A DNA stretch of 64,000 nucleotides from Punctularia strigosozonata HHB-11173 SS5 (Eukaryota > Basidiomycota > Agaricomycetes > Corticiales > Punctulariaceae): contig NW_006767448.1 of assembly GCF_000264995.1 (NCBI RefSeq), positions 124,001 to 188,000 on the forward strand. The letters run 5' to 3'. Below the pieces are notes generated by a model. The model made no database searches. It worked only from the letters and a program-made list of their open reading frames with translations, and was not told the DNA's origin. Each line of letters begins with the position of its first letter. The first letter of the stretch is position 1. The position numbers and the translations under genes are program-made. Below, piece after piece: positions 15,859-44,210 of this stretch.

Positions 15859-18748
15859 ATGCTTTTACTCGGAACCTTCCTCACGCTCCTTACTTCGATT
15901 AACGCTCTCCCTGTGCCGCCTGCAGCGCACTTCCCTGTGCCGCCTGCAGCCCCCTTCACGAACAACTTCGGCGCCCAGCTCGAGTGGGTCGACTGCACGG
16001 TCAACGTGCCCGCACCCGTCCAGCAGCAGTTTAACGTCACCACTTGGAATGCCACTGGACTCCCGACGCTCCCTTCGACGCTGGCATGCGGACACTTGAC
16101 CGTTCCGCTCGACTATTCGGCTCCGATCAGCGACTCGAATAACATTACCCTGGGCTTTGCCATGCACCGGCCGGGTAACGCCTCCCAGTTGCTCAACTTG
16201 TGAGCTCGTCCACTTTCTTCGTCCACAGTGCCTCCTACAATTGTTCGGGACAGCAACCCAGGTGGCCCCGGTTTGGAGGCTGCTTCGTTCGCATGGGGAA
16301 TCGCTCTCAACTCCTCGTCGAGTGCCATGTTCGATGGCGTGCTTGACCAGGACTTCCTGGGTGAGTTGTTGCGCTCTGCGCCTTCTGGTAGTTTACTGAC
16401 ACGATTTATAGCTGTTGATGTCCGCGGTGTTGGGCAGTCGAATCCTTTGAACTGCTCTTTGGTCGCCGCCTCACAGATACCTATTGCGCTGTGAGTGTGG
16501 ATGACGCCTTTCGAAATATCTTGTCCTGATGCCTGCCGTGCAGCCCAACAGACGCAGCTTCCTTCGCGGCTTATCAGGCATCTGTCGCTGCATTTGCGCA
16601 ATCTTGTGTTACCGGCAGCTCTCCGCCGGGCATCGTCCAGCACGTTGGCACCCAAGAAGTCGCGCAGGACTGGAACACCTTGATGAACGCCCTCAACTAT
16701 ACCAAGATGAACTTCTTGGGCGTATCATAGTTAGTGGCCTCAACTTTCGATGTGGCACTGCTCTGATATATCTTGACAGCGGGACCTTCCAAGCTGCCGA
16801 ATACGCCTCTCGTTTCCCAGAAAGCGTTGGCAACTTTGTCCTCGACGCCGTTCTCTCGCACGCAACGGTATGTTCGAGCTCCATCTACATGCCTTGTGCT
16901 GATACAACCAATCATTCAGGTCGATCAAATCGCCGTCGCTGATCAGATCACGGCGGTCAACCGTCTTGTTCTTCGCGCGGACGATTTCTGCCAATCCGAT
17001 CCGTCTTGCCCTTTCAAGGATCAGGGCAACGGCAGCGTCCCCGAGGTATGTAGTTGATGGAGTGCAACCATCATGATGTTACTCCGCCGNNNNNNNNNNN
17101 NNNNNNNNNNNNNNNNNNNNNNNNNNNNNNNNNNNNNNNNNNNNNNNNNNNNNNNNNNNNNNNNNNNNNNNNNNNNNNNNNNNNNNNNNNNNNNNNNNNN
17201 NNNNNNNNNNNNNNNNNNNNNNNNNNNNNNNNNNNNNNNNNNNNNNNNNNNNNNNNNNNNNNNNNNNNNNNNNNNNNNNNNNNNNNNNNNNNNNNNNNNN
17301 NNNNNNNNNNNNNNNNNNNNNNNNNNNNNNNNNNNNNNNNNNNNNNNNNNNNNNNNNNNNNNNNNNNNNNNNNNNNNNNNNNNNNNNNNNNNNNNNNNNN
17401 NNNNNNNNNNNNNNNNNNNNNNNNNNNNNNNNNNNNNNNNNNNNNNNNNNNNNNNNNNNNNNNNNNNNNNNNNNNNNNNNNNNNNNNNNNNNNNNNNNNN
17501 NNNNNNNNNNNNNNNNNNNNNNNNNNNNNNNNNNNNNNNNNNNNNNNNNNNNNNNNNNNNNNNNNNNNNNNNNNNNNNNNNNNNNNNNNNNNNNNNNNNN
17601 NNNNNNNNNNNNNNNNNNNNCGATTTCTGCCAATCCGATCCGTCTTGCCCTTTCAAGGATCAGGGCAACGGCAGCGTCCCCGAGGTATGTAGTTGATGGA
17701 GTGCAACCATCATGATGTTACTCCGCCGAAGCTGAGCGCAAACTCCATAGGCATTCACCAAGGTCATCCAGATGGCCGAGAACGGTTCCTTCAGCGATCT
17801 CAACGTCACCGCGACGCTGGCCAAGTTCGCGTTGTACTACACGGTCAACTCTTCTCCGGACTTCCCCAAGTTCAACCTGGCGCTCTCGCAAGCATTGAAC
17901 GGCAACGCGACGCTTCTGGTACCTGATCCGGTGATCATGCTGGAGATTGTGAACGTGTTACCGATCATCTGCGCGGACGAGGGTGAGGATATCTCAACCG
18001 ACCATGGTTGGTTGGATCACTCACCAGATGGATCGCATCCGCAGCTGGCGACGACAATACTCTGGGCGGCCTCGTGAAGTTGAATCAGAGCGCATCTGCG
18101 GTAAGCGTCACGTCCTCTGCGGCCCAATTTGCCATCGTTAATCATAACATCAGGTCGACACGCTCGGTTTCCAATACTCGCAGTTCTGGCAGCTACGGGT
18201 GAGTACTATATGGCTCGCAGCTAACATAGCATGCTCACGAAAGTCTTCTTCAGCTCATGTGCACCGCTTGGCCGTTCTCCGCCAGGCCGAAGCAGACCTT
18301 GCACGTTCAGTCCCCCATGTTATTCGTTACCGCAGACTACGATCTCAAGTAAGCGAAGCCTGTACGGTGGATCACTCATGGCACTGATCGTTCGGAAATC
18401 TTAGCACACCGACGGAGCTCGCGACTCTCCAATGGCAGGATCAATCCCCGCAATCGACTCTGGTGGTCCGTCACGGAGACGATCATGGTACGACGATGCG
18501 TACGTACAGTATTCTGCTACCTTCGGCCAGGATAATTGCTCACGGTCAGATGCGCAGTTGCTGGGCAACCCGCTAGCCAAGACGCGATTGCTTTCCTTTC
18601 ATCGGGCACGATCCCCCAGCCGACGGAGCAGCAACTCGTCAGCGTTTACGCTCCTGGCTCGCAGCGTCCGCCGGTCACGCCCCCTTACGTCGCACCCATC
18701 GGGAAGGATGCCGGAGACTTGTCGACGGTTGAGACGATCTCTTTTTGA
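15859..18748 (+). CDS. S33/TAP-like alpha/beta hydrolase, secreted (copy A; interrupted by assembly gap)
   Basis: Resembles tripeptidyl-aminopeptidase-like serine hydrolases with a TAP-like C-terminal domain. The ATG at 15859 opens a signal peptide (MLLLGTFLTLLTSINA). FGAQLEWVDCTVNVPAPVQ, ACGHLTVPLDY and AVDVRGVGQSNPLNCSL follow. The nucleophile elbow GVSYGT is split by an intron near 16728-16781. EYASRFPESVGNFVLDAVL, then TADYDLNTPTELATL (acid region) and VVRHGDDHGTT (catalytic His) follow, ending DLSTVETISF at 18748. About ten exons. The N run at 17090-17620 lies inside, flanked on both sides by the same 108 bases, so the true gene is probably about 640 bp shorter than drawn. A 24-bp tandem repeat (15909-15956) doubles PVPPAA just after the signal peptide. 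Confidence 0.85.
15909..15956 (+). repeat. 24-bp tandem duplication in hydrolase copy A
   Basis: Two 24-base units (15909-15932 and 15933-15956) differ at two positions and encode PVPPAAHF and PVPPAAPF, directly after the signal peptide. The paralogue at 44.2 kb has a single, different unit (PVPYRPPF), so the expansion is specific to this copy. Confidence 0.8.
17090..17620. other. Assembly gap (531 N) with duplicated flanks
   Basis: The 108 bases before the gap (16982-17089) recur immediately after it (17621-17728). This is the pattern left when two overlapping contigs are placed side by side with padding. Reading frames that cross the N run are not real. Confidence 0.9.
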
Positions 18749-19614
18749 ATAGCTGAGAGATTCTCGGGAGATGATATGCACCTGTGCGGCTGGGACGGTC
18801 TGTATGATTGCTAGGACAATATACTTTGACCCCGCCTTAATGAAGTGTGTCCGCGATGATGCACAGGATAGCCCTGATACTCCCTGGAGCACCACCGCGG
18901 CGTAGCGCCTCCGACATGCGTGTATTCGGTTCATAGCTGAGGAATCGAAATATCAAGCGAGATAACGCTGCCCACGGGACTAGCCTCTGACATAGCCACC
19001 AATGGACTTGGCTCCGTCCATCACCCTGTCGCACCTTTTTGCGAGGCTCCGTTATTTTCTCGGACGGGACGATGACTGCCAAGCACATCGTTCTATATTC
19101 AGCGACGCTTGACGCTTGAACGAGGACGCGCGTGTAATACAAAGGACGGCGGCAAGATCGTTACACCGGGGGGAGGGTCACGAAGCCAACGGTTCTCAAT
19201 TCGCCGAAGAACGAAGCAGGACGACAGCATGATGCTCTCAACAACGGGCCTTGTTGTTAGCAGCCCCGAGCTTAAACCTCGGAACATGTTCAGTGACCCG
19301 GGGAAGTGATCGAGGACATCCTGCGCCGTTCGTCCGCGAGACCGACGAGCTGATCATCGTTCGCTTGGATACGCCGAGGACGGTTCTTGCATAGCGGTCA
19401 GGTCTCCCTCCGACGTTCGTCCTTCTCGATGGCGGAGGTTCGCTGCGTTTTGTTTGGGTCCAGTGTTCGGGGTGCAGCAAATCAGCCGGGCTATTTCCCC
19501 GTTGCGCTCCTGGGCGATGTTTTGCTCCTCCATCGGGGAGACGGTATATATACCCCGCAAAGCTCGACGTAAGTTTTCCTCCATCGGTCACCACCAACAC
19601 CCGGCTCAACCACA
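18749..19614. promoter_or_regulatory. Upstream region of GH7 copy A
   Basis: A TATA box (TATATATA, 19545-19552) lies 63 bases before the GH7 start codon. Two CCGGGG motifs (about 19166 and 19298) fit the SYGGRG consensus of the carbon-catabolite repressor CreA/Cre1. That consensus is short, so the repressor sites are only suggestive. The region shares no obvious similarity with the upstream region of GH7 copy B. Confidence 0.5.
19545..19552 (+). promoter_or_regulatory. TATA box of GH7 copy A
   Basis: TATATATA, 63 bases before the ATG, where a core TATA is expected for a strongly expressed fungal secreted-enzyme gene. Copy B has the same octamer 57 bases before its ATG. Confidence 0.65.
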
Positions 19615-21359
19615 ATGTTCCGCACGGCAGCCCTCGTCTCCTTCGTATTCCTCGCCACCGCGTCTGCCCAGCAGGTCGGTACCTCAGCGGCGGAGACCCA
19701 CCCGGCCCTTTCCTACCAGACCTGCACCTCGTCCGGCTGCACCAACGTCGCCGGTAGCGTCACCCTCGACTCCAACTGGCGCTGGGTCCACAACGTCGGC
19801 GGCTACACCAACTGCTACACCGGTATGTCCACCCTCCCCTCATCCCCGCTCTCACTCAGTGTCCTCACGCTTCTTCGTAGGAAACCAGTGGGATGCCACC
19901 CTCTGCCCGGACCCGGCCACCTGCGCGAAGAACTGTGCTCTCGACGGCGCCGACTACTCCGGCACCTACGGTATCACCTCCTCCGGCTCTGCCCTCACCC
20001 TCGCCTTCAAGACCGGCAGCAACGTCGGTTCCCGCGTCTACCTCATGAAGGACGACAGCACCTACGAGACCTTCAACCTCCTCAACAAGGAGTTCACCAT
20101 GGACGTCGACGTCTCCAAGCTCCCCTGCGGTCTCAACGGCGCCGTGTACTTTTCGGCCATGAGCGCGAACGGCGATGCGTCCTCGACCAACGCCGCCGGC
20201 GCCAAGTACGGCACCGGCTACTGCGACTCTCAGTGCCCTCACGACCTCAAGTTTATCCAGGGCCAGGTGAGAACGATGTACATCCTTGCTTGCCGTTCAT
20301 GCCTAACACGCTCTTGCTCACAGGCCAACATCATCGGATGGAACGGTACCTCCGCCAACTCGGGCACGGGGTCCATCGGCGCCTGCTGCTCCGAGATGGA
20401 CATCTGGGAGGCCAACTCCATCTCCGAGGCGGTCACGCCCCATCCCTGCACGGGCACGGGCATCACCGCCTGCACGGGTTCGACCTGCACCTCGACGTGC
20501 GACCAGGCCGGATGCGACTTCAACTCGTACCGGATGGGCAACACCACGTTCTACGGCCCGGGCATGACGGTCGACACGACCAAGCCGATCACGGTGGTGA
20601 CCCAGTTCCTGACGTCGGACAACACCACGACGGGGTCGCTTTCGGAGATCCGGCGGTTCTACGTGCAGAACGGGGTGGTGATTCCCAACTCTCAGTCGAC
20701 GATCGCGGGCGTGAGCGGCAACTCGATCACGGACAGCTGGTGCGCTGCACAGAAGACGGCGTTCGGGGACACGAACACGTTCCAGTCGCTCGGCGGGTTG
20801 AAGCAGCTGGGCGCGGCGTTCGCGAAGGGTATGGTTTTGGTTCTGTCGATTTGGGACGACTACGCGGTGAACATGCTCTGGCTGGACTCGGACTACCCGA
20901 CGAACAAGGACGCGTCTGCGCCCGGTGTCAAGCGCGGCACTTGCGCGACGACGTCCGGTGTCCCCGCGGACGTTGAAGCGAACGGCGGGTCGATCTCGGT
21001 GACTTACTCGAACATCAAGGTCGGCGACATCGGGACGACGTTCAAGGCTGGCCGTACGTTTCCCTCCTCTCCCCGTCGCTTCTACTCGCTAACATGCGCT
21101 TTCGTTCCTCAGAGTCCTCCGGCAGCGGATCGTCTGGCTCTAGCGGATCCAGCACCTCGACCGCTTCCGGCTCTGGTTCTACCGGCTCGTCCGGCTCGGT
21201 GGCCAAGTACGGACAATGCGGCGGCACCGGTTACGCCGGCGCGACGACCTGCGCGTCTGGCTCGACCTGCACCGTCCTCAACCCCTGTGAGTTCCTTCGC
21301 GATAAATCAAGCTGTCTTCCAAACTTACGTGATTATCAGACTACTCGCAATGTCTCTAA
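19615..21359 (+). CDS. cbh1: GH7 cellobiohydrolase I with CBM1 (copy A)
   Basis: Reducing-end exo-cellulase that releases cellobiose from crystalline cellulose. Five exons (19615-19822, 19881-20266, 20324-21053, 21113-21286, 21340-21359) encode 505 residues. Signal peptide [18 protein letters not shown]; the mature enzyme starts at QQVGT. The catalytic motif EMDIWEAN carries the E-x-D-x-x-E nucleophile and acid/base. Disulphide-rich stretches ([23 protein letters not shown]) and the [16 protein letters not shown] segment are typical. A Ser/Gly linker of about 35 residues leads to a complete CBM1 ([16 protein letters not shown] ... NPYYSQCL). The last exon is only 20 bases. TATA box 63 bp upstream. 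Almost identical to the inverted copy at 37.4 kb from the start codon to the CBM1, but not outside it. Confidence 0.97.
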
Positions 21360-21762
21360 ATAGGGGCAACCCTGGGACGCCCCGATAGACAACTGTGGGG
21401 GCAGTGCTCACAAAATGCCTCCATAATCACGACTCGAATTTATGTATTAGTAATGGAATGGATGACACCAAAATGGATAGCGCTTGCTGGGATTACTCAC
21501 CACGCTTGGTTGATCTGTTCGTCTGCAATGATAGGAGGACGCCATAAGTAAGCGTGAGAAATTCGCCTCTTTTCTTTTCTTTTCTACCCTTGAGACAGCT
21601 CCTCTGTGGCCTTTAAGTTTCTGTGGTGCTCCTATGCTTCGATGCACCGTACGACAGCGATTACTTAGGATTTGGATGTACAAGAAAATTGCTTGCAAGA
21701 TACGTGTGATCGTCGAGAAACGCTGGATGTATGTATACGTCATACATGATACGAAGTTCTGT

Positions 21763-22835
21763 CTACTCATGCATATATGCTAGTCTCTTTAGCTCGTCGC
21801 CTACAGTCTCCGACGCCCTCATAGCCTGTTTGCTCCACGGGGCAAGCTGCAAGAACACATGCGTCAGAGCCTCGAAGTGATGCCAGGAGACGGCATTCCC
21901 TGCTTCCTGGAGTTTGGAGGCGTACTCGACGCCGACGTCGCGCAGGGGGTCGTAGCCGCAGGTGAACACCGCCGCAGGAGGCACGGACTCCAGCGAAGAG
22001 ATGGGTTGCATACCGGGCGAGACATAAGGGTTGGAGGGCGCAACGCCGCGAGGGAGATAGTGGTCCGCAAACGAGAATATGCCGTTACCTGCGGGGCTTA
22101 GAGGTGAGATGGATTTGACCAGACCGTGCAAGAGCCGCTGGCTCACATTCGAGGTATAGACCCGTGTTGTTCTCAGCCGCTGCTGGAGTATCGAAGGGCA
22201 GCCGAGCTTCCGGATAGAGCAGGATCTGAGCCTTGAGTGGTTTCTTACCCTCGTCTCGCAACCTCAAGCTCAATGCTGCCGTCATGTTCCCTCCGGCGCT
22301 GTCTCCTCCTCCGCACACCCTGTCCGGGCTCACGCCCCTCGTCTCGCCACCTTCTCCCTGGAGCCATTCAACGACGCACGCGTACTCGTCCAGCTGTGTC
22401 GGGAAACGCCACTCGGGCGCCGGGCGCGAGGCGGTACTCCACCGCGTACACCTGCACGCCCGCGCGCTCCGCCAGAAGTCGGCACCCGTTTTCGAACTCG
22501 TCAACGGTGCCCACTGTGTATCCCCCGCCGTGGAAGTAGACAAGCGCGCCCGCGTCCCCCGCCTTCCTTCGCTCCTCGCCGCTGCGCGGGTAGAACACGC
22601 GAACGGGGATCGTCCCGTGCGGCCCACGGATCGCGGTGAACTCGACTTCGCCGATCGGCGCGCGCTTTGACGCGTCGAGTGCGTGAAAACAGAAGATCTT
22701 GGTGTGGTGGCTCCGCTCTGCGTAGAAGTCGCCGCAGCCGCCGAGGTGAAGGTCGGGCGCGCCGCTGGTCAGGAATGCGTGCACCTCTTCATCAACCCGT
22801 GCACCTCACGAGCCGACTTTGGGGATGGATGACAT
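21763..22835 (-). pseudogene. HSL-type alpha/beta hydrolase, apparently broken
   Basis: Resembles hormone-sensitive-lipase family esterases. Oxyanion motif YFHGGGY, nucleophile elbow GGGDSAGGN, and C-terminal acid and His regions (CGYDPLRDVGVEYAS, ALTHVFLQ) are all present. An intron near 22090-22148 splices well (LYLEC/NGIFSFADHYL). Two defects are visible. A 7-bp tandem duplication (GCGCCCG twice, near 22430) shifts the frame between VYAVEYRLAP and EWRFPTQLDEY. The only good ATG (22835, MSSIPKVGS) runs into an in-frame TGA before RVDEEVHAF. Both could be sequencing errors, since the rest is well conserved. If the sequence is right, this is a recently broken gene. It lies divergent from the methyltransferase gene. 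Confidence 0.7.
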
Positions 22836-23391
22836 TGTTGCGTGTGTTGACCTCGAGTTGAGGCGAAGGAGACGAACAAGTGGTCTTTGATGTCCGGTTG
22901 GATTTGCGACACATCTCAGCTTGCACGATGACGAAAGGTTGCTGGGGGTACATTATGAATAACTCAGTGGCGGTGCCAATATTCTTTGCCAGAGAGGGAG
23001 ACTCCGAGACCGACCGTGACAGAGGTTATCGATTTATCTGCAATGCATGGACAGACACGCCCCATTTGACTTTGACGGAACGGGGCATGGTCTCTGAAGA
23101 CCTCCTTTGGAGCTCGAAGACTGCGGGTGCAGCGCAAGAATCCGTCCGGCCGCGTTCGGCGTTGGTCAAAGTCGACCTCAAGCCTCCTTGGGTTGTTGCA
23201 GATAACCTCTACCAAAGTCGGGCATGATGTCTGTCCGTGCGTCGCTCTCATTGCTCCCACCCTGAAGGCCAAAGCTTGAAGAGTCACGATCGCAATCTCG
23301 ATTGTTGAGTCACATCAACCCTCGCCCATGAGTCGCTCATGGCACCGCTACATATAAGACCTCCGCGGGCGCTCCGCACACCCTCACAAGA
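22836..23391. other. Divergent intergenic region
   Basis: Holds the presumed promoters of the HSL-type hydrolase (minus) and methyltransferase (plus). The only sequence of note is a TATATAAG-like motif near 23351-23358, about 40 bases before the methyltransferase ATG. No gene seen. Confidence 0.45.
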
Positions 23392-24327
23392 ATGTCGTCT
23401 ATACCTCTGGACGCCGCGGAAATAGCCCCTCTTTCGCAGGTCACTGCTGGATCAGGGCTCAAGATCCAGCTCGGACAGACCGAGCACCGTGTCAATCTCG
23501 TTCGGCAATGGGACATCAAGCCGGGCGAACGCGTGCTCGAACTTGGATGTGGGCAGGGTGACTGCACGACCGTGCTTGCTGCTGCTGTCGGTACATCTGG
23601 CCATGTAACTGCCGTTGATCCCGCCCCGCTTGATTACGGTACGATACAATTTACATGACAATTTCTCACATGCTGAAGCAGCGTATGTTGTACTTTAGGC
23701 AGTCCGTTCACGCTTGGCCAAGCTCAGAGTTTCATCAGCGCAGGACCTCTTGGCCCTATTATCACATTTGTGCAAGACGACCCGGTGGCCTTTCTCGGCA
23801 AAACAGAAGAGACTTGGGACGTCGCTGTCCTCGCCGCCTGCACCTGGTACTTCTCCTCTCCCGAAGCCGTTCGCACAACGTTCAGAGCTCTCTCCGGAAG
23901 AGCCAAGCGTATCTGCATATCAGAGTTTGCACTTTCCGCGAGCAATCCTGCCGCGTTCCCCAACGTGCTCGCGGTGCTCACGCAGGCGGCGCTCGAGTGC
24001 CGCAAGATGCAGTCGACGTCAAACGTCCGAACCGTCCTGAGCCCGAAGGCTGTCAAGGAGATCATAGGGCAGGCAGGGCTGGAGGTCGTGGAGGAAACTG
24101 TGGTGGAAACACCTGAGGGCATGTATGACGGACGATGGGAGGTCGGCGCGGTTTTGAGCGAAAGCTTCCTGGAGGATATCAAGGCTCATGTCGAAGACGA
24201 GAAGGAGAGGTCGGTTGTATTGGCTTTGAGAGATGCGGTGGAGGCGAGTAAGAAAACCCTCCCAGAGGGAACTCGGATACGCACTATGGACGTGTGGGTT
24301 GCAACTCTAAAGGCTTCAGAGCACTGA
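23392..24327 (+). CDS. Class I SAM-dependent methyltransferase
   Basis: The ATG at 23392 begins MSSIPLDAAEIAPLSQV. The SAM-binding motif I is VLELGCGQGDCTTVLA, followed by the acidic residue of motif II in HVTAVDPAPLDYG. One intron (about 23639-23699) joins DYG to SPFTLGQAQSFISAG. Downstream come VAVLAACTWYFSSPE, equivalent to motif IV, and RICISEFALS. The protein ends WVATLKASEH at 24327 and is about 290 residues, usual for a single-domain Rossmann methyltransferase. The substrate cannot be read from sequence; there is no adjacent biosynthetic core enzyme to suggest a secondary-metabolite role. Confidence 0.88.
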
Positions 24328-25146
24328 TGTCTTCGCCCTGCATAGTATGAGGTGTTAAATGTCGGGTGACATGTCGGGCGCGGAGCGCGCTTGACCCGTC
24401 TGCAATGCGAGGGGTGAGATTGCTGGGCAAGCGCGTCAGGTACATCGGATGCGAGCGCGAGTAGATATACGTGTACAGCGATCAGATAATAGTGAGCACT
24501 GAACGCGCACTGAATTCTCATATTCCAACATGAGGCGACAATTGTATTTTGCTCGATAGTGCCTAAGGCTTGACAGTATAGTCTTCGTGTCCGAAGCCTC
24601 CGATCAATCGTGAGATGACCTCGTAAAGAAACCAGGAAAATCCTGGAAATGTCTATTCAGTGACTTGATCGGTCATTGTATGTCCAAGAACCCAGTCGGG
24701 TCTTTTGACGAACTATTGTAACCTGCTTAGTGCGTGCTCCCACCCCGGAGCCCCAAGCTTGGCCTTTGATGAAGATTACGATATTTATCGGTTGACGCAT
24801 TCCAAAAGCATCCTCAATGGATCTTCGAAGCATCCTTGAGCTCGATCGGGGATTGCCGCCACGTGGGAACTTGCGCATGTTGATCTCTGACACCCAAGAT
24901 CACGTGTCTGCTAATGCGGGAACCCACAAATGCTCAAAGCCCGAGGGCGCGCGAGTCCCCGTTCGACTCTCCTTGACCCTGCGCGCTCCCCCTTCACAGA
25001 GTCTCCCCCCTGTTGCGCTGTCCCGCCTGCGCCCGCTTTTCCCGCTCTACCGCTCAATTTTTGCGCTCGTGTTCTGCTCGTCGTCGTCAGATAACGACGC
25101 CCGTTTATCTTTCGCACATCGCTTTTGTCCCCGTTGAAAGGTAGTT
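24328..25146. other. Intergenic region
   Basis: No gene seen. The last 200 bases are pyrimidine-rich (many CTC, TTC and CGC runs), a composition common just upstream of highly expressed basidiomycete genes, here the basic KPASKA protein. Confidence 0.4.
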
Positions 25147-25965
25147 ATGCCCCGCAAAGCCGCTCAGCCCAAGGAAGGCGCCGAGGGTGCCGCCGAGCCC
25201 CGCCGCAGCTCTCGTATCAAGGAGCAGCCCAAAGCTGAGCCTGCACCGGCGAAAAAGGCCGCCAAACCCCGCGCAAAGAAGACCGAGGCTGCTGGTACGT
25301 GTCTCCTGCGTCGTCCGACCTTTTCACGCGCATTTATCCTTCCTCCCCAGAAGGAGAGGATAAGCCCAAGTCTACTCGCGGCAAGAAGCGCACCGCCAAC
25401 GAGGCGGATGCCGCAGGTGACGAGCCCGCCGCAAAGAAAGTCAGTCCTGATTCTCCTTCACATGATGCCCCTTTCCCCGGCTCGTCGTCTATCCGTTTTT
25501 CGGTACATAATATCGCTGGTTTCGGTCTTTTTATGCGTCGAGTTGTGGTCGTGTGGTACGCTGACACGTCCTCTGGCAGACTAAACCCGCGTCAAAGGCG
25601 GCGACCAAGCCGGCATCGAAGGCTGGCAGCAAGCCCGCCTCGAAAGCCGCCAAGCCAGCGTCTAAAGCGTCTAACAAGCCCGCCAGTACGGCGTCCACCA
25701 AGCCCGCGTCTCGCGCGGGAAGCAAGAAACCTGCCAGCAGGGCAGGCAGCAAGAAGCCGGCCTCGAAGGTGAGCTGATCCGGATCGATATGCAAAGCGCG
25801 AAAGAACTAACGGGCCCTTTAATCAAGGCCGAGGCATCAGCAGCGACCGCCAACGGCGATGCGTCGTTGACGAAGGAGACCATCGCGGAGGAGCCCGAAG
25901 CTGAGGCCGACGCCGAGAAGGCTGCTCCGCAAGAAGAAGAGGAGCCCGCTGCTGAGGAGGCATAG
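25147..25965 (+). CDS. Basic KPASKA-repeat nuclear-type protein (histone H1-tail-like)
   Basis: Four exons can be joined from the ATG at 25147 to the TAG at 25965. The N-terminal exon reads MPRKAAQPKEGAEG and RRSSRIKEQPK, then a Lys/Ala/Pro-rich stretch. The middle is an array of K-P-A-S-K/R-A units (SKPASKAAKPASKASNKPAS and similar), followed by SRAGSKKPASRAGSKK. The tail is strongly acidic (EEPEAEADAEKAAPQEEEE). The bipolar charge, low complexity and missing globular domain suggest a disordered chromatin-associated protein like an H1 tail. I see no winged-helix fold, so it is not a full linker histone. The RRSSRI motif is matched in the neighbouring convergent peroxiredoxin. Confidence 0.75.
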
Positions 25966-30003: not shown

Positions 30004-30398
30004 GCGACGAAGACGGCGACGGCGTCCGGCTCTGCGAGCCTAAAGAGGCGCTCGGCCTGAAGACCGTGCATATATACCTATTTCATTTTATACTCACCGA
30101 TTCCGCGCCTATAACCGTGTCTCTTGCTCTCACGCTCTGGATCTCTCCCATTTGTAGTTGTTGATTTGCATCCACATATGTTCTCCGTCTGTATCGATTC
30201 AATATATGCCCCACATGCGCTTCTATTCGCTCTCCTCATCTGTGAACATGATAGCGAAAGACGTCGAGGGTCCTATGCAAGATAGCTAATCAAGTCATGT
30301 AGGGCCCTTGATCGAAGCTCAGCGCCATCTACAGCAGCCCGGCGATCGAGTACGGCTGTCCGTTGCGGGGCGAACCTGATCATCCCCAATGCTCTCGA
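30004..30398. other. Convergent 3' region
   Basis: 3' flanks of the MYND gene (plus) and cytochrome b561 gene (minus). AT-richer than its surroundings, with no open frame of interest. Confidence 0.45.
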
Positions 30399-31224
30399 TT
30401 ACTGCGCAGCTGCGCTCGCCTCGGTACCGCTGGCATCGTGCAACCCGGTCTTGCTCTCCTGGTCCTTCGTGACCGCGCCCGCGGCAAACGCCGATTCCTG
30501 CTTCCACTGCCTGCGGAGGAGGAGCAAGCCGAGCGCGTACAAAGCCCAGAAGACCTAGGTGGCGAGAAACTGATCGTCAGGCACGCGTAGGTGAGGGGGA
30601 GGAGGATGGAGACGCACGATGATGAGCGCGAGCCAGGCGTGCTTGGCCTCCTGCGTGACGGCGTGGAGCCCGCCGGTGGAGCGCGGCCACTCGGTGTAGA
30701 GCCCGTAGTGGACCTGGTACGCCGCGAGGGCGAGGATGGCGAGGCCGAGGATGGCGTGGAGGTAGTTCTGCGGCGGGCGGTGGAGCGGGGTGCGCGCGAA
30801 GCGGGGGAACTTGAGGAAGTGGACGAAGAGGCCGAAGAAGACCTGGAAGAGGTAGAGGACGAGGAGGGCGAGGCCGATTTTCTGTCACGGGCACGACCTC
30901 GTTAGCATACTCGGGAGTGCGAAGGGGGGTGAGGGTGGGAGAAAAAAAAAAGGGAGATACCTTGTGAGTGTCGACCCAGTTGCCGCCGGTGAACAGACGC
31001 TGGGTGGTCTGGTAGCCGTACGCCCAGCCGGCGAGGATGACGGGCCCGGAGACGACGAATTGGATGAGGCCGTGTGCCCACCACCAGCGGGAGGTGAAGG
31101 TGCGGGCGTAGCGGGCGAGGAGGACGCCGAGCGGGAGGAGGATGAGGAAGCCGATCGAGGAGAGCAGGGCGTGCGTGCGCGCGCGAGACTCGATCGGCGT
31201 GAAGGGGAGCTTGAACGACGACAT
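30399..31224 (-). CDS. Cytochrome b561-like membrane protein (copy 1)
   Basis: Transmembrane di-heme electron carrier family. The ATG at 31224 begins MSSFKLPFTPIESRARTHAL. Hydrophobic helices: SIGFLILLPLGVLLARY, LIQFVVSGPVILAGWAYG, IGLALLVLYLFQVFFGLFVH, NYLHAILGLAILALAAYQVH, and a last one in WALYALGLLLLRR. Candidate heme ligands are the His of RTHALLS, WAHGLIQ, DTHK/KIGLA and NYLHAILG. Four exons end TEASAAAQ at 30399. There is no DOMON domain in front, so this is a stand-alone b561. It is closely related to the gene at 56.7 kb, with introns in matching places (for example after GGNWVDTHK). Confidence 0.85.
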
Positions 31225-31899
31225 GGACCTCTATAGTACGGGGGTAGAGGGTGGTGCAGCTAGCGGATGGCAGGGTCGTGCGGGTCGTGAGCACGGTGAC
31301 GCAGGAGAGCGGGCTGGCGTATTTGAACGCTGCTCCCGCGCGACTGTCTGATTCATTTTTCGCGCGCGCAGCCGGGGGGACGTTCTCGGAAGGCCAGCCG
31401 AGGCGGGCGAGTATAAACGAGTGCACGGCGTGGATAGAAATGTGAGGGCGTCTACTGGCCGGCGAACCCACGCGCATTACGGATGGACGTGGACGTTCCC
31501 ATGAGTTCTCCGGGGCGGAGGCTGCGGATATCAGGCGTGGGCGAAGGCTGCCAGCATGGGAACATGGAAGGCAGCGCAGCCAATTCCGAGGTGGTTTATG
31601 CGCTAGAAGACGAGCAAGGGTTGGTCGATGGCGTAAAGAAGATTGCGAGGCGCAGTGGGAGGCTGTTAAAGGCGCGCGAGCGTCGGGGCTAGGACCGCAG
31701 TCGGCGAGGCCGAGTGTGCGAGTACGGTCATGAATTCATGTTCTGTGTTTCCAGCAGCGTCTCAAGCGACTTGCAGCTTGCAGACCAGATGTAGGCTATG
31801 AGTGAATTCCAGGCCGAGGTGAGTGGACAAGGTTAGGCGCCCATTCCCGAGCGTGATATGCGTCGGCGCCTATTCCCCACACTTGAGCTCGAGTGCACC
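31225..31899. other. Divergent promoter region
   Basis: Shared upstream region of cytochrome b561 copy 1 (minus) and the UBR7-like gene (plus). A 69-codon plus-strand frame starting at 31483 is too short and featureless to call. Confidence 0.45.
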
Positions 31900-34112: not shown

Positions 34113-36807
34113 CTAATCCAAATCCGCATTCCATATTTTCACGGTTTTGTCACTACCACCTGAGACGACGCGCTTGCCATCAGGCGAGAAGGCAACGGAC
34201 CAAATCACACCTCCACCTCGGCCTTCCCAAGGCCCCGCTACGGTCTGTCCCGTCTTCGCGTTCCATATCCGGATCGTGCTGTCGTCGGAGCCAGAGACGA
34301 TATACTGGCCATCCGGAGAGAATGACACGGAGCGGACCGTGTCTTTGTGCCCTCTCAATGGGCCCAGTACTGTCTGTCTTGTATTGGCGTCCCAGATCCG
34401 GATCGTGGTGTCGTAGGACCCTGAGACGATGTGCGCGCCACAGGGGGAATACGCGACCGGCCAAACCGCGTCATTGTGGCCACGCAACGGGTCCCCGACG
34501 GGCTTGGCCGCGTTGGCGTCCCAGAATCGAATGGTTCCGTCGTCGGATCCAGAGATGATGTATTTACCGTCCGGTGAGAATGCGACGCTAAGAACCCAGT
34601 CGGAGTGACCGTGTAAAGGCTCGCCGACGGCCTGTCCCGTCTGCGCGTCCCAGAGTCGGAGCGTCTTGTCAGTTGAGCCCGAGACGATGCGGTCGCCTTT
34701 GGGCGAGAATGCAACACACTTAACCTCGCGCGTATGCCCTTCGAGCGGCTCCCCAACCTGCTGCCCCGTCTTCACGTCCCATAGTCGCACGGTGAAGTCA
34801 TGTGAGGCCGAGGTCAGGCGCTTCCCATCGGGGGAAAACGCCACCGAAGAGACGTCGTTCGTGTGCCCTCGTAAAGGCTCGCAATCTTCCTTTCCGGTGT
34901 CCGCATTCCATATTCGGATCGTGCTATCCCCAGAGCCCGAGGCAATTTGGGAGCCATCCGGGGAGAGCGAAACAGAGTACACGGTATGTGTATGGCCTTG
35001 CATGGTGGACCGCAGCGTCATCTCTGTTGACAGGATCAGAGGTTTGAAAGCTAAACATGAACAAAGCATCAATGTATTGCGTACCGAGGTGACGTTGGGT
35101 AAAGGTCTGCGTCAACCAATCCATTGCCCGGCGACTCCCGGGTCGCCTCTGGTCAACATGCAGCAGCAGTCTCTCCACAACACGTCTGGAATATAGATTC
35201 AGACCCGGTGGCAACGGAGAATATACACCGAGAACCATGATGATATCGGTCGCACGCGTCTCTGGCAAGTTCGAATCTTTCAGTCCATCTAGCATCATAT
35301 TGAGAGAGCCGAGAAGCTCTGTTGGGTCAGCAATATTGCAGAACACATTTCTGCCGATCTCTGTATCGGTTTAGTACAGAGCTTGGGGTGAATTGTAGCA
35401 ACACGACAGACCTGTGGACAGCAGATCATCGAGCACTTGGCAATCGTCCTTCGAGAGACCTTCATTCAGCAGCTTTGGAGCAAGCTCTCGTGCAGCTTGA
35501 TATGTCACGAGATTCTCGAATACTTCCGAGATTTGAGGTCGCTCAGACGGGTCTGCTTCCCAGCACCAGGTGACGGCAGTCCTCCATACGAAATCATCCA
35601 GACCTAGGTCTTGTGCGTGCGAAGGGCGCGTAGGCCGTGAACCATCAAGAACTTTGAGAGCGGTTACGAATACGTGATCGATATTGTAGAACGGGCGTCT
35701 ACCATCAAAGATCTGTAGACTGGTTTAGCTTAAGTGATTTAGCAATATCAGACTATACCTACCTCCCATGTGGTCATACCAAATGCATAAACGTCAGACT
35801 CCGAAGTACGGGTCGGATTCATCACGTCAGACTCCGAAGTACGGGTCGGATTCATCGCCCAATCCAACAACTCGGGGGCCTTGTATAACACCGAGACCCA
35901 GCGTGAAGAAGATTCTGTAGGTGTTGCCAAAGAGTCGGTACCAAGGGTCGTCGATAAAAGAAAGTCGACAAGACGTGCACGCCCGACTTTGTCCACAAGG
36001 ACGTTGCGCTGGATTCCGACGATAATTGAGTCGTAGCTGACTGTGAAGAAGTCAGTACTCACGCTATGGAGATCACCATGTACAAGACCGTTTGAATGCA
36101 TGTAATGAAGGCCATGGGCGATATCCGTGATCTGACCGTAGCTTCATGAGTTTGGCGAAGTGCAGTGCAATACACAATGTTCACCAGTCTCACGCGATCG
36201 GCGCTTGGATGGTATTCGAGATACGACAGAACATCGCCATTGTCCATCCATTCCGACACGATGCATGCATAGTTTCCAGGTTCAACGCCGATGAAGGGGA
36301 CGATATTGGGATGATCCAGCCGCTTCCACAAGACCGCTTCCCTGCAGAACATCTAGCCATCGGTATGAACCTACGATTTTTTTCTCCGAGGCGCAATGAG
36401 GAACACACCTTCATATACGTTTTCTGATCTCTGGCGTGCAGCCGAATGACCTTCCGCGCGACGGAGATACCGTTGTAGGTCCCTCGGTACACATTCGCGG
36501 ATCCCCCATAGCAAGGAGGATCATCCCCAACATTCACAGGCCCCGATAACCTGCATCTTGTGGGTAGGAGCCCGCTCTTGCTACACAGCCCGCTGAGCGT
36601 GCGCAGACTCGTTCGAAATCTGCCGTCAGTGCGAGGTGTTGAGTCGAGGCCCTAGATCGCACTCTGAGTCTCCGGTTTTTCTCCAGTGCGCTCCAGCCGA
36701 CCGCCACTCACACAATCCAACTTGTCTATCTTCTCCTGCAGAGCCGCGGTGTGAGCAGCGGAACCATCGTCCATGTAGTTGAGTATGGGCGCGGGTGAAG
36801 GAGACAT
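34113..36807 (-). CDS. TKL kinase fused to seven WD40 repeats
   Basis: Start probably the ATG at 36807 (MSPSPAPILNYMDDGS); the join to the next exon is uncertain. From about 36620 the chain reads LCSKSGLLPTRCRLSG, a common lead-in to agaricomycete TKLs, then a glycine loop (CYGGSANVYRG), VARKVIRL, KRLDHPNIVPFIGV, the catalytic loop VHGDLHS/RNVLVDK, DFL instead of DFG, YKAPELLDW and DVYAFGMTTWE. ADPSERPQISEVFENL closes the kinase. A helical linker (LLGSLNMMLDGLKD, RRVVERLLLHVDQRRPG, RRAMDWLTQTFTQRHL) follows. A 71-bp intron (35024-35094) joins in frame to seven 43-residue WD40 repeats ending KTVKIWNADLD. Seven repeats make a complete propeller. A 33-bp tandem duplication sits in the kinase C-lobe. 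The fusion is supported by an in-frame splice, not by transcripts. Confidence 0.8.
35791..35856 (-). repeat. 33-bp tandem duplication in the kinase C-lobe
   Basis: Two identical 33-base units (35791-35823 and 35824-35856) give MNPTRTSESDV twice in a row between the APE motif and DVYAFG. The duplication keeps frame and is exact, so it is recent. Confidence 0.95.
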
Positions 36808-37401
36808 GATGCGCCTTGACGTTGTGTTGTTGCTTATTGTATCGCGATTAGCGCCGAGGGGGGATCACAGCATCCTTTAAGTCCTGTATATTGGAGCTCA
36901 ATAATCACGACCACATTTTAGGCACGCGTTCCCTTCTTTGAATCATCACGCGAGCGGCGACAGAGTGAAAACATAGATGAAAGGTCTGTACAACGCCCCT
37001 TATATTCCGGCAACTTGACTCGACAATGCCGAAGGATCGGCATGGCTCGCTTAGTGGAATTTTGAGCAAGATCTATTCTATTCGGCCTTACAGACCCTTA
37101 GGAATTGTCACCCATTGAATGTCGTATTTGACCATGTACTGTTATGGACATTGCAACGTTTCGGTCCATCACGGAAGACAAGACACCGCCTTACTCATAT
37201 AATGGTGACCGCGCAAGATATCTGGGCTCGAGAACGCGGACACCGTAACGATAGACCGTATTCGATTGCATGCGTGGTATCCAAGATCCTTCTTACTGGT
37301 ACAATACGAACATCCGATCCTCCTAGCACAGCAGCCTTTTGGCGACCATGAAGCTACGCTCTAATCCTCATCTACAAGCGAGGGACCAAAGGTCGCTGAA
37401 C
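36808..37401. other. Intergenic region
   Basis: Upstream of the kinase-WD40 gene and downstream of GH7 copy B. No gene recognised. Confidence 0.45.
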
Positions 37402-39148
37402 TCAGAGGCATTGCGAGTAGTCTGTGGAGGATTGTCAGTTTCCTGCTCGACTCAGGCGAAAGGGGGGAAAACTCACAGGGGTTGAGGACGGTGCAGGTCG
37501 AGCCAGACGCGCAGGTCGTCGCGCCGGTGTAACCGGTGCCGCCGCACTGTCCGTACTTGGCCACCGAGCCGGACGAGCCGGTAGAACCGGAGCCGGAAGC
37601 GGTCGAGGTGCTGGACCCGCTAGAGCCAGAAGATCCGCTGCCGGAGGACTCTGAGGAACGAAAGCGCATGTTAACGAGTAGAAGCGACGGGGAGAGGAGG
37701 GAAACGTACGGCCAGCCTTGAACGTCGTCCCGATGTCGCCGACCTTGATGTTCGAGTAAGTCACCGAGATCGACCCGCCGTTCGCTTCAACGTCCGCGGG
37801 GACACCGGACGTCGTCGCGCAAGTCCCGCGCTTGACACCGGGCGCAGACGCGTCCTTGTTCGTCGGGTAGTCCGAGTCCAGCCAGAGCATGTTCACCGCG
37901 TAGTCGTCCCAGATCGACAGGACCAGCACCATACCCTTTGCGAACGCCGCGCCCAGCTGCTTCAACCCACCGAGCGACTGGAACGTGTTCGTGTCCCCGA
38001 ACGCCGTCTTCTGTGCAGCGCACCAGCTGTCCGTGATCGAGTTGCCGCTCACGCCCGCGATCGTCGACTGCGAGTTGGGAATCACCACCCCGTTCTGGAC
38101 GTAAAACCGCCGGATCTCCGAAAGCGACCCCGTCGTGGTGTTGTCCGACGTCAGGAACTGGGTCACCACCGTGATCGGCTTGGTCGTGTCGACCGTCATG
38201 CCCGGGCCGTAGAACGTGGTATTGCCCATCCGGTACGAGTTGAAGTCGCATCCGGCCTGGTCGCAGGTCGAGGTGCAGGTCGAGCCCGTGCAGGCGGTGA
38301 TGCCCGTGCCCGTGCAGGGATGGGGCGTGACCGCCTCGGAGATGGAGTTGGCCTCCCAGATGTCCATCTCGGAGCAGCAGGCGCCGATGGACCCCGTGCC
38401 CGAGTTGGCGGAGGTACCGTTCCAGCCGATGATGTTGGCCTATGAGCAAGAGAACGTTAGTCATGAACGGCAAGCAAGGAGGTACATCGTTCTCACCTGG
38501 CCCTGGATAAACTTGAGGTCGTGAGGGCACTGAGAGTCGCAGTAGCCGGTGCCGTACTTGGCGCCGGCGGCGTTGGTCGAGGACGCGTCGCCGTTCGCGC
38601 TCATGGCCGAGAAGTAGACGGCGCCGTTGAGACCGCAGGGGAGCTTGGAGACGTCGACGTCCATGGTGAACTCCTTGTTGAGGAGGTTGAAGGTCTCGTA
38701 GGTGCTGTCGTCCTTCATGAGGTAGACGCGGGAACCGACGTTGCTGCCGGTCTTGAAGGCGAGGGTGAGGGCGGAGCCGGAGGAGGTGATACCGTAGGTG
38801 CCGGAGTAGTCGGCGCCGTCGAGAGCACAGTTCTTCGCGCAGGTGGCCGGGTCCGGGCAGAGGGTGGCATCCCACTGGTTTCCTACGAAGAAGCGTGAGG
38901 ACATTGAGTGAGAGCGGCGATGAGGGGAGGATGGACATACCGGTGTAGCAGTTGGTGTAGCCGCCGACGTTGTGGACCCAGCGCCAGTTGGAGTCGAGAG
39001 TGACGCTACCGGCGACGCTGGTGCAGCCGGACGAGGTGCAGGTCTGGTAGGAAAGGGCCGGGTGGGTCTCCGCGGCGGAGGTACCGACCTGCTGGGCAGA
39101 CGCGGTGGCGAGGAATACGAAGGAGACGAGGGCTGCTGCGCGGAACAT
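37402..39148 (-). CDS. cbh1: GH7 cellobiohydrolase I with CBM1 (copy B, inverted)
   Basis: Exons 39148-38941, 38882-38497, 38439-37710, 37650-37477 and 37421-37402 have exactly the same lengths as in copy A and encode 505 residues. Signal peptide [18 protein letters not shown]. Catalytic EMDIWEAN, Ser/Gly linker and CBM1 ([15 protein letters not shown], ending NPYYSQCL) are intact. Differences from copy A are a handful of substitutions, for example Thr to Ala at residue 4 and Tyr-Ala to Tyr-Thr in the CBM1. Introns 1-3 are also almost identical to copy A, but intron 4 and everything outside the coding region are not. TATA box at 39205-39212. The S33 hydrolase copy B lies upstream, as in the other pair. 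Confidence 0.97.
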
Positions 39149-41071
39149 GGCTGATCGACGACGGGAGGTAGACCGGTGAAGAGAAAGAGACCAAGACTCC
39201 TCCCTATATATACGATTCAGAGGTAGGCTTGATGGGGCCCAACAACGAAATGCGACGCGGGGAAACTGCTGGTCAGTACCCCTCGGGGAGCTTCCTTCGG
39301 GTGGTGCGGAACATGGTGGGGGTGTTCAATCAAAGGTGGACTTAGGGGGGTAATTATCGGAACATATCGTCCATTGATCGAAGGACGAAAATCGGGCCCT
39401 TTTACGGAACGCAGAGGAGATGCAGGTCTTCTGCTGGAGGCTCGGTGGAGATTCGTTGAAGACGCGTGAAAATCGCTGGTGAATAGATTTTCCGACAGTT
39501 CAACCAGGCCATACGACTCCAGACATGAAGGCACCGACCAGCTCGTTTGTTGACCTGCCCCAGAGCGGAATCGTGAATTGCAAGGCAGTGGTAATTCAAG
39601 CTGGTCCCCGCGCTTCTGCCAGCCAAAAAGCCTGTAGATCAAAGTCTGACCGAAGACATAGCCAATTTTGGGCCTTTTGTCTTGGCGCCGATGTGTGTTG
39701 TTTCCGAGGAAAGGACGAGAGCCAGCAAAATGTCCGTTACGACGTCGGCGAAGAGACCCAAGTCAACGGTGGCTGAGCTCTCCGCCCAAAGGGGGCTCAC
39801 GTGGAGGTCGACGACCTATTCCTCGGGTGAACCTCGCCCTCATGTCAGGGACCGTCATAACTGCTCTCTACGCGTGATACTGCGTCTTGTGCTGCATTGC
39901 GAGGCACTTGCTCAGATGTGACGGCCCATCACCGACAATCTCACTTGCACTATTGCCGCCGTCAAACAGGTGGACCCGCGGAGTGCTCCCGAATGGGTTG
40001 ACGGAGGTTGACGGGACACGATGGAACACGATTCACGTGGAACTCTCTTGAATTCACCGACGTCGGATGACTGCTTTCAGGCAGTTAGGTTGCGAAGATC
40101 AGATATTTCCGACGCTAGACCCATGCATCGGAGAGACTTGGTGACAGTGGATTGTTTGTTACGCTATTGTGCACACAGACCGAAAACATGAACCCCCAAG
40201 GGCGTAGTGAGCGTAAGCAGGTATGCTCCCTCCTAATCGGAGAACATGAGGTTGAGTCGGAATGTCGTTCGCCGGAACGAAATGACAATCTTGCTCGCAT
40301 GCGGACGGGAAGTCACTTTCTTGCACTTGGAGCTCATACGACGCAAATCTCGTGTAGATAGATCTCGACGTCAACAACAGATCCTTACTGTGCTTCCACT
40401 GTCGACGGCGAACGACAGCAGCCGAATGACGCGTCCTTGCGAAGTTCATTCATGGCGCAATACTGGGTGACTTCTCGCAATCAGGTGGTCGCTGTTCTGG
40501 GGGAGGTGTTCATATTCCGAGGTACGCTCTACGGCATTATATATACCGTAAGTCAAAAGACTATGTGTGCCTAACTGATAGATATTGCTCTTCTCAGGAC
40601 CTTGCCTTCGGCGTCGTTACCCTCGTACCAGTCGACGCATGCCTCATCCATTCATCACCTCCCGCTCGATGAAATTTCCAGTGAACCGCAGCTCTGCATG
40701 GACAATCGGGAATGTGATACGTTATAGCATATGTCTCGCGCTGTCATCGCATCGCAGGCAGTTATCCACCAGCTTGCTTTTGTTCCTGACTAGGCCCTAG
40801 TCTTCTCGTTGCCTCCGTGCCAAGCAACGGCAACATATCGGATTCGCAGACCGTTATGAATGAGTCGCAGCGCGCTGACGCTCCGTGCGCAGTGGCAGCC
40901 ACTGATACTTAGTAGGCATAGTCAATGCTGACTGGAAGCACTCTGCTCTTGAAGCATGACTTGTGTTATATACCATGAAAGCGGATTCGAAATGTACCAC
41001 CTTGGCGATCACACAGACCGTCCCAGCCGCACCAGCGCAGCTCGTATTTGAAGAAACAAAACCCCAATTTT
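39149..41071. promoter_or_regulatory. Upstream region of GH7 copy B, otherwise empty
   Basis: 1.9 kb between GH7 copy B and hydrolase copy B, compared with 0.87 kb in the other pair. It has the TATA box at 39205 and SYGGRG-type motifs near 39257 (GCGGGG) and 39316 (GTGGGG), which are weak candidates for CreA/Cre1. No gene recognised in the rest. Confidence 0.45.
39205..39212 (-). promoter_or_regulatory. TATA box of GH7 copy B
   Basis: TATATATA, 57 bases before the ATG at 39148. The surrounding promoter sequence differs from copy A, so the shared octamer reflects function rather than the duplication. Confidence 0.6.
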
Positions 41072-44000
41072 TCAAAAAGATATGGACTCTACTATCGATA
41101 AGTCTCCGGCATCCTTCCCGATCGGTGCGACATAAGGGGGGGTGACCGGCGGACGCTGCGAGCCAGGAGCGTAAACGCTGACGAGTTGCTGCTCTGTCGG
41201 CTGGGGGATTGTGCCCGTTGCGAGGAAGGTAATCGCGTCCTGGCTAGCGGGCTGCCCCACAACTACGTATCAAGCGATGAGCCCTAATCCTGGGTAAACA
41301 AGGTGGTAATATTCAACTCACGCATTGTCGTGCCGTGATCGTCTCCGTGACGGACTACGAGAGTCGATTGCGGGGATTGATCCTGCCACTGAAGGGTTGC
41401 GAGCTCCGTAGGTGTGCTGAGGCATCGCGTGTCATTCAACATTGCAAGTATTCTTCGATATGGCTTTCGCTTACTTCAGATCGTAATCCGCGGTGACGAA
41501 CAACATGGGAGTCTGGACTTTGAGGGTCTTCTTTGGTCTAGCGGGGAACGGCCAGGCTGTGCACATAAGCTAGAGAAAAACAAAACTGGTGAGCGAGAAC
41601 CAGTCCATTGAGAACAAGCACTGTACTCACGCGTAGCTGCCAGAACTGCGAGTATTGGAAACCGAGCGTGTCGACCTGACACTGCGTTCAGCGATGGCTC
41701 AACAGGTCACGGAGGAGACAATGATGCATACCGCAGAAGCGCTCTGGTTCAACTTCCTCAGGCCGTCCACGGTATTGTCGTCGCCAGCTGCGGATGCGAT
41801 CCATCTGGTGAGTGATCCAGCCAACCATGGTCGGTTGAGATATCCTCACCCTCGTCCGCGCAGATGATCGGTAACACGTTCACAATCTCCAGCATGATCA
41901 CCGGATCAGGTACCAGAAGCGTCGCGTTGCCGTTCAATGCTTGCGAGAGCGCCAGGTTGAACTTGGGGAAGTCCGGAGAAGAGTTGACCGTGTAGTACAA
42001 CGCGAACTTGGCCAGCGTCGCGGTGACGTTGAGATCGCTGAACGAACCGTTCTCGGCCATCTGGATGACCTTGGTGAATGCCTATGGAGTTTGCGCTCAG
42101 CTTCGGCGGAGTAACATCATCATGGTTGCACTCCATCAACTACATACCTCGGGGACGCTGCCGTTGCCCTGATCCTTGAAAGGGCAAGACGGATCGGATT
42201 GGCAGAAATCGTCCGCGCGAAGAACAAGACGGTTGACCGCCGTGATCTGATCAGCGACGGCGATTTGATCGACCTGAATGATTGGTTGTATCAGCACAAG
42301 GCATGTAGATGGAGCTCGAACATACCGTTGCGTGCGAGAGAACGGCGTCGAGGACAAAGTTGCCAACGCTTTCTGGGAAACGAGAGGCGTATTCGGCAGC
42401 TTGTAGGTCCCGCTGTCANNNNNNNNNNNNNNNNNNNNNNNNNNNNNNNNNNNNNNNNNNNNNNNNNNNNNNNNNNNNNNNNNNNNNNNNNNNNNNNNNN
42501 NNNNNNNNNNNNNNNNNNNNNNNNNNNNNNNNNNNNNNNNNNNNNNNNNNNNNNNNNNNNNNNNNNNNNNNNNNNNNNNNNNNNNNNNNNNNNNNNNNNN
42601 NNNNNNNNNNNNNNNNNNNNNNNNNNNNNNNNNNNNNNNNNNNNNNNNNNNNNNNNNNNNNNNNNNNNNNNNNNNNNNNNNNNNNNNNNNNNNNNNNNNN
42701 NNNNNNNNNNNNNAATCTCCAGCATGATCACCGGATCAGGTACCAGAAGCGTCGCGTTGCCGTTCAATGCTTGCGAGAGCGCCAGGTTGAACTTGGGGAA
42801 GTCCGGAGAAGAGTTGACCGTGTAGTACAACGCGAACTTGGCCAGCGTCGCGGTGACGTTGAGATCGCTGAACGAACCGTTCTCGGCCATCTGGATGACC
42901 TTGGTGAATGCCTATGGAGTTTGCGCTCAGCTTCGGCGGAGTAACATCATCATGGTTGCACTCCATCAACTACATACCTCGGGGACGCTGCCGTTGCCCT
43001 GATCCTTGAAAGGGCAAGACGGATCGGATTGGCAGAAATCGTCCGCGCGAAGAACAAGACGGTTGACCGCCGTGATCTGATCAGCGACGGCGATTTGATC
43101 GACCTGAATGATTGGTTGTATCAGCACAAGGCATGTAGATGGAGCTCGAACATACCGTTGCGTGCGAGAGAACGGCGTCGAGGACAAAGTTGCCAACGCT
43201 TTCTGGGAAACGAGAGGCGTATTCGGCAGCTTGGAAGGTCCCGCTGTCAAGATATATCAGAGCGGTGCCACATCGAAAGTTGAGGCCACTAACTATGATA
43301 CGCCCAAGAAGTTCATCTTGGTATAGTTGAGGGCATTCATCAAAGTGTTCCAATCTTGCGCAACTTCCTCCGTGCCAACGTGCTGAACGATTCCCGGGGG
43401 AGAGCTTCCAGTGATGCAGGATTGTGCGAACGTAGCCACCGATGTTTGATAAGCCGAGAAGGAAGCTTGGTCCGTTGGGCTGCTCGGCACTTATGAGTAT
43501 AGAACATTGGAAGAGGTATTGGCCATTCTTACAGCGCAATCGGTATCTCCGCTGCGGCGACCAGAGAGCAGTTCAAGGGATTTGACTGTCCGACGCCGCG
43601 GACGTCGACAGCTGCATGTCGAATCAGCTGACTACCGAAAGATGTTCCGCTGAGCGGCTTACCAAGGAAATCCTGGTCAAGCACGCCATCAAACATGGCG
43701 CTCGACGAGGAATTGAGAGCAATACCCCATGCAAATGAAGCTGCCTCCAAGCCAGGTCCACCTAAATCGTCTTGTGAGCCGCCAACAAAACCAAACTCAC
43801 GTCACAAAACACCGAGCACACGTACCTGGGTTACTGGTCCAACCAATTCCATCAATCATTCTAGACGCTCCGGTAGGAATGGAGCGAGCTCACAAATTAA
43901 GCAATTGCGTTGCGTTACCTGGGCGGTGCATGGCAAATCCCAGGGTAATGTTATTGGTGTCGCTGATCGGAGCTGAATAGTCAAGCGGAACGGTCAAGTG

Positions 44001-44210
44001 ACCGCATGCCAGTGTCGACGGGAGAGGCGGAAGTCCGGAGGCGTTCCAGGTCGTGACGTTAAACTGCTGCTGAACGGGCGCGGGTACGTTGACCGAGCAA
44101 TCAATCCATTCAAGCTGGGCACCGAAATTGCTCGTAAAGGGTGGTCTGTATGGCACGGGAAAGGCGACAATGGAAGTAGCAAGCGTGAGGAGGGTCGTGA
44201 ATAAAAGCAT
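41072..44210 (-). CDS. S33/TAP-like alpha/beta hydrolase, secreted (copy B; interrupted by assembly gap)
   Basis: The ATG at 44210 opens MLLFTTLLTLATSIVAFPVP; FGAQLEWIDCSVNVPAPVQ and ACGHLTVPLDY follow. The nucleophile elbow GVSYGT is split by the same intron as in copy A. The acid and His regions are present and the protein ends DLSIVESISF at 41072. The first exons and the last exons differ clearly from copy A, while the middle (from TLMNALNYTKMNFLG to about the DNT exon) is almost identical, intron included. An N run at 42419-42713 is flanked by about 535 duplicated bases, so several exons appear twice; the true gene is probably about 830 bp shorter. Probably a secreted exopeptidase; substrate unknown. 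Confidence 0.85.
42419..42713. other. Assembly gap (295 N) with duplicated flanks
   Basis: Bases 41884-42418 recur after the gap at 42714-43249 with only a small difference near the contig end (CTTGTAGGTCC against CTTGGAAGGTCC). This is the sign of two overlapping contigs that were not merged. Confidence 0.9.

Follow-up and report, generated by a model that had tools for sequence, protein, structure and literature searches.

Patchwork divergence between the arms of an inverted hydrolase-cellulase pair in Punctularia strigosozonata probably reflects at least two interlocus gene conversions

Introduction

How can two copies of one gene pair, facing each other on a single contig, be almost identical in some stretches and hardly alignable in others? 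The question is raised by a window of 64,000 nucleotides from Punctularia strigosozonata (G000:C16:124,001-188,000), the whole stretch of DNA analysed here, for which a preliminary description had proposed an inverted duplication of an S33-type hydrolase and a GH7 cellobiohydrolase. That description had suggested that both genes were duplicated together and that the inverted layout favours later conversion. We compared the two copies with each other and searched the genome, which comprised 33.57 Mb in 32 contigs. Its short introns and its GH7-CBM1 enzymes are in keeping with a basidiomycete that decays wood.

Results

Repeat and BLAST searches of the window recovered the inverted duplication where it had been placed, as two facing arms: arm A at 15,859-21,359 on the plus strand and arm B at 44,210-37,402 on the minus strand. 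Each arm carries a gene for an alpha/beta hydrolase with a TAP-like C-terminus followed by a five-exon GH7 cellulase gene with a CBM1 module. Alignment of arm A with the reverse of arm B confirmed the same gene order and relative orientation in both; the GH7 genes matched at 97.7% identity over 1,679 nt, and the hydrolases matched piecewise, with pieces within 15,834-18,811 corresponding to 44,235-41,005. The distance of about 16 kb between the arms was also borne out, 16,176 nt separating the two GH7 repeats. The spacers between hydrolase and GH7 do not align between the arms, and a comparison of the open frames of the window (1,001 frames of at least 40 aa, frames with more than 10 N-derived residues being left out) revealed no other common gene in the outer flanks at E 1e-6. 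Arm B is unlikely to be the other haplotype of arm A, since each arm has its own flanks, spacer length and intron set.

Between the arms, a Pfam family was assigned to four of the 16 single open frames tried, one of the four below the cut-off. An open frame at 34,113-35,111 (minus strand) has seven WD40 repeats as well as direct DNA repeats inside it, and a protein kinase fragment (PF07714) at 35,748-36,143 (minus strand) contains a 33-nt tandem repeat (35,791-35,856) whose units match exactly. A weak match of 52 aa was found between 458-1,075 and 36,062-36,352. Two further open frames of the window that are related to each other, at 30,580-31,230 and 56,634-57,603, form another inverted pair, which is older and has about 56% amino-acid identity; part of the latter (57,088-57,603) matches cytochrome b561 (E 1.1e-5).

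The hydrolase gene of arm A (15,859-18,748, plus strand) has 12 exons and encodes 546 aa when an assembly gap and its repeated edge (17,090-17,728) are left out, and that of arm B (41,072-44,210, minus strand) has 13 exons and encodes 538 aa with its gap and repeated edge treated likewise. As in other TAP-like alpha/beta hydrolases, Pfam domains PF00561 (Abhydrolase_1) and PF08386 (TAP-like Abhydrolase_4) were found, both above the cut-off in hydrolase B, and the GVSYGT and NPGGPG motifs are present. These domains agree with the S33 label given in the preliminary description, which in MEROPS denotes peptidases; the product is predicted to be a secreted hydrolase. Hydrolase B matched six distinct sequences in the PDB (a protease, Hip1, two of carboxylesterase A, TnmK2 and a secreted hydrolase), a range of names compatible with more than one kind of substrate; the relatives with a solved structure are all distant, the best match having an E value of 1.1e-15 and spanning residues 62-256.

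Among the matches listed in the genome search, all 23 exon matches of the hydrolase subfamily fell in the two arms, and no other genomic member appeared among the best-scoring ones. A genome search with the Pfam TAP-like profile detected two more distant genes, on contig C2 and at 599 kb on C16; this search gave no match in the arms, where the domain is split by introns. No hydrolase was found among the matches listed near the other GH7 loci, on C6, C7 and C9, which makes the hydrolase-GH7 pairing specific to this locus and leaves the idea of a functional link between hydrolase and cellulase without support.

Hydrolase B alone contains a 64-nt intron (43,762-43,825, minus strand), which splits the NPGGPG motif and is preceded by a micro-exon of 8 nt (43,826-43,833, minus strand) predicted from the frame; because 8 is not a multiple of 3, skipping of the micro-exon would shift the frame. 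Hydrolase A lacks this intron. A gain in B is probably more likely than a loss in A, because the two distant relatives on C2 and at 599 kb on C16, on which this polarity is based, read the motif unbroken at the intron point. The insert bears AGGT at both ends; intron gain with short direct repeats is the subject of existing literature. We rejected the notion that the intron is a multi-copy element, as its one genomic match was its own and its resemblance to other parts of the window was at chance level (38 of 100 shuffles reached the score).

The divergence between the two hydrolases is distributed as a patchwork. Synonymous divergence (dS) was 0.917 over the 218 codons of the 5' side, 0.527 over the 154 codons of the 3' side and only 0.017 over the 166 codons of the middle, the middle differing from the two sides with p 1.7e-23 and 3.8e-13, respectively (Fisher test). 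The near-identical tract lies at 16,689-18,060 in arm A (plus strand; 733 nt after merging) and at 41,772-43,334 in arm B (minus strand), where it encloses the gap and repeated edge. Over 15,952-18,748, leaving out columns that are gaps in A, mismatches amounted to 4 of 733 columns within the tract against 318 of 1,425 outside it, and none of 10,000 column shuffles attained the score of the tract. The introns follow the same division: the four inside the tract are 98-100% identical between the arms and the seven outside are 45-65% identical. The hydrolases therefore show what interlocus conversion would leave, namely a bounded, near-identical tract within strongly diverged paralogues; and here, as in GH7 introns 1-3, near-identity runs through introns as well as exons.

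Both hydrolase genes are interrupted by assembly gaps whose edges repeat each other. In arm A, 531 N (17,090-17,620) are preceded by 108 nt (16,982-17,089) that recur exactly behind them (17,621-17,728); in arm B, 295 N (42,419-42,713) are flanked by 41,884-42,418 and 42,714-43,249, which repeat each other at 99.6% over 536 columns. A third gap of the window (61,393-61,618), outside the inverted duplication, has 800 exact nt on both sides (60,593-62,418), and a gap in the C7 stretch is accompanied by a 444-nt repeat of 98.4% identity that ends 83 nt before it, so that every one of the four gaps inspected, the three of the window and the one in the C7 stretch, had repeated edges. When the repeat is counted once, both arms yield complete hydrolase frames, which align gap-free across the join. 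Because single counting gives intact genes, the repeats look as if they were assembly artefacts, in the simplest reading overlapping contigs left unmerged. For the same reason, and given that they abut N-gaps and that other gaps are alike, we discarded the direct repeats at 16,982/17,621 and 41,884/42,714 as real intragenic duplications.

These gaps bear on an alternative in which the hydrolase middle is a chimeric or collapsed consensus that the assembly placed in both arms, the true second version being missing. The alternative draws on the position of the gaps, which lie with their repeated edges exactly within the tract in both arms, and on the recurrence of such edges at every gap inspected, which indicates that the assembly handles such places badly; some doubt about a chimeric assembly at this point persists. 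The tract nevertheless contains four differences between the arms, at 16,759, 17,072, 17,789 and 18,012, two of which are consistent between contig ends: at 17,072 both contig ends of A carry the A base and both of B the B base, and at 17,789 both contig ends of B carry the B base. Such arm-specific bases argue against a simple collapse of reads. In addition, the genome search uncovered no leftover diverged version (four matches, all in the arms), and GH7 displays the same kind of patchwork without any gap. We therefore consider an assembly artefact unlikely.

The GH7-CBM1 genes of arm A (19,615-21,359, plus strand) and arm B (37,402-39,148, minus strand) each have five exons and encode 505 aa, both frames being open and the two proteins differing at three amino acids. 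Like known GH7 cellobiohydrolases with CBM1, the predicted protein of arm A comprises a full GH7 profile (PF00840, residues 1-435, 635.9 bits) and a C-terminal CBM1 (PF00734, 48.4 bits); its best PDB match is the solved 1gpi, and nothing unusual was seen in the protein. The two genes share a core that begins at the ATG and reaches just into the last intron (19,615-21,293 on the plus strand in A; 39,148-37,470 on the minus strand in B), gap-free and with 39 differences. Leaving out the first ten codons, dS was 0.075 and dN 0.002. Introns 1-3 were identical between A and B at 55 of 58, 51 of 57 and 58 of 59 positions, whereas the last intron reached 0.78, near the shuffle mean of 0.71. No alignment between A and B was obtained for the promoters and the 3' flanks, and GH7 A thus has a last intron, last exon and 3' flank of its own. 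A second ATGTTCCGCAC at 39,314 (minus strand), 166 nt upstream of the ATG of GH7 B, resembles the start of the GH7 gene and is possibly a relic or a chance likeness.

A third copy of the GH7 core was located on contig C9. The stretch C9:72,911-74,558 is 98% identical to the core and continues past it with the last intron and 3' flank of arm B, so that altogether 36,460-39,118 of arm B (minus strand), without 37,020-37,127, recurs from C9:72,911 to about C9:75,460. The C9 sequence is a dispersed copy of the GH7 gene and 3' flank of arm B. It stops about 300 nt short of the kinase fragment at 35,748-36,143. Within 30 kb around it, only this piece of 2.6 kb matches the window, and C9 was accordingly rejected as an allelic stretch. 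Homology begins at GH7 codon 11, the start codon and first ten codons being absent; an in-frame ATG stands some 300 nt farther upstream (C9:72,611). The 5' break (C9:72,894-72,925) coincides with an inverted repeat with 13 nt per arm and 3 nt between them, and GC-rich degenerate repeats adjoin it.

Divergence between B and C9 was uneven: among 366 synonymous sites 26 differed, against 11 of 344 in the near flank and 4 of 557 in the far flank (synonymous versus far flank, p 9e-8; near versus far flank, p 0.0065). Either a mixed history or unequal rates may lie behind this pattern, for which one simple copying event at a uniform rate fails to account. In the compared part C9 has only one protein change of its own, at codon 273, which implies that it was constrained for most of the time or lost its 5' end recently. 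Private differences numbered 19 in A, 17 in B and 20 in C9, in addition to one three-state site; these nearly equal counts point to no order or direction of transfer, and a short burst of copying would look alike.

The C9 copy brings up another alternative, namely that no conversion took place in GH7, that its coding part was recently copied into arm A by ordinary duplication and that only the hydrolase is an old duplicate. The similar distances among A, B and C9 (dS 0.075, 0.090 and 0.075) suit such copying, and C9 itself demonstrates that parts of GH7 do become copied to other places. What does not suit it is the way in which the likeness of A and B ends: it reaches no further than the ATG on one side and the beginning of the last intron on the other, and yet A has a last exon that appears from its sequence to work and that follows a different intron, so that a pasted copy would have had to land in register before such an exon. 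Because A has its own 3' end, the better fit is a GH7 gene that already stood in arm A and was overwritten from its ATG as far as exon 4, and we regard recent copying as improbable. Finally, maintenance of the likeness by selection or codon bias alone, in keeping as it would be with the low protein change of GH7, is very improbable and contradicted by the introns, which are as alike as the exons within the tracts and unlike outside them, and by the older GH7 paralogues on C7 and C6, whose identity to A is 80.5% and 74.6% in exons but 42% and 51% in introns 1-3.

Discussion

The best explanation of this locus, which we hold to be likely, is an old inverted duplication followed by interlocus conversion on at least two occasions of unequal age. 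Long ago, a unit of hydrolase and GH7 would have given rise to a second, inverted copy within the same chromosome, after which the arms would have diverged until introns, spacers and promoters barely aligned. Later, repair using the other copy as template, that is, interlocus non-reciprocal conversion, may have overwritten parts of one arm. An older conversion, or a series of them, would have covered GH7 between its start codon and its last intron, and a younger one the middle 733 nt of the hydrolase. The copying of a piece of arm B, from GH7 codon 11 through the 3' flank, to C9 would have been a separate event. We infer different ages for the two conversions because the tracts differ in divergence (39 of 1,679 in GH7 versus 4 of 733 in the hydrolase, p 0.0013), the difference being weaker at synonymous sites only (p 0.038). 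The later conversion that the inverted layout had been thought to favour has thus probably already happened, at least twice.

The proposal that the pair was duplicated as a unit held in part. Gene order, orientation and a hydrolase subfamily that, among the best-scoring genome matches, is confined to this locus fit it; proof is precluded because the GH7 genes no longer carry an age signal of their own and the spacers are too different for alignment.

It is tempting to extend the conversion reading to a lasting exchange network, in which GH7 sequence passed again and again between three loci spread over two contigs; we offer this as a tentative and rather doubtful possibility. If true, it would keep the cellulases two to three residues apart and let A and B diverge in their promoters and 3' ends; a single enzyme would then stand under separate controls, and the conversion of the hydrolase would follow from this layout as a side effect.

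The patchwork has consequences for how such loci are read. Dating the duplication by the identity of the cellulases (97.7%) would mislead, given the silent divergence of 0.5-0.9 at the ends of the hydrolase, and the same pitfall can distort the reading of cellulase gene trees and copy numbers in such fungi. Annotation of the assembly as it stands would produce split or falsely repeated hydrolase genes.

In the open-licence literature, where absence proves little, we found no report of gene conversion in basidiomycete GH7 cellobiohydrolases or among glycoside hydrolase paralogs of white-rot fungi. The process itself is known: paralogues can convert one another, also across introns and within inverted two-gene modules, and the present locus is a well-resolved new case of it. 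Recursive ectopic gene conversion in Aspergillus, as set out in PMC12844118, likewise concerns linked fungal paralogues and runs through introns. That study compares orthologues of two species, whereas we compared paralogues of one genome, and the word "inverted" is absent from its main text. With regard to orientation, a review cites a study on Caenorhabditis suggesting that pairs in the same orientation convert more, and names proximity as a confounding factor (PMC3966223). The same review describes hsp16-1/hsp16-48 of C. elegans, which like the present locus form an inverted two-gene module, and explains their high identity by gene conversion (PMC3966223). According to that account the hsp16 modules are 416 bp apart, whereas the arms studied here are separated by 16 kb that include other genes, and by comparison with hsp16-1/hsp16-48 the conversion in this locus would be patchy, with tracts of differing divergence.
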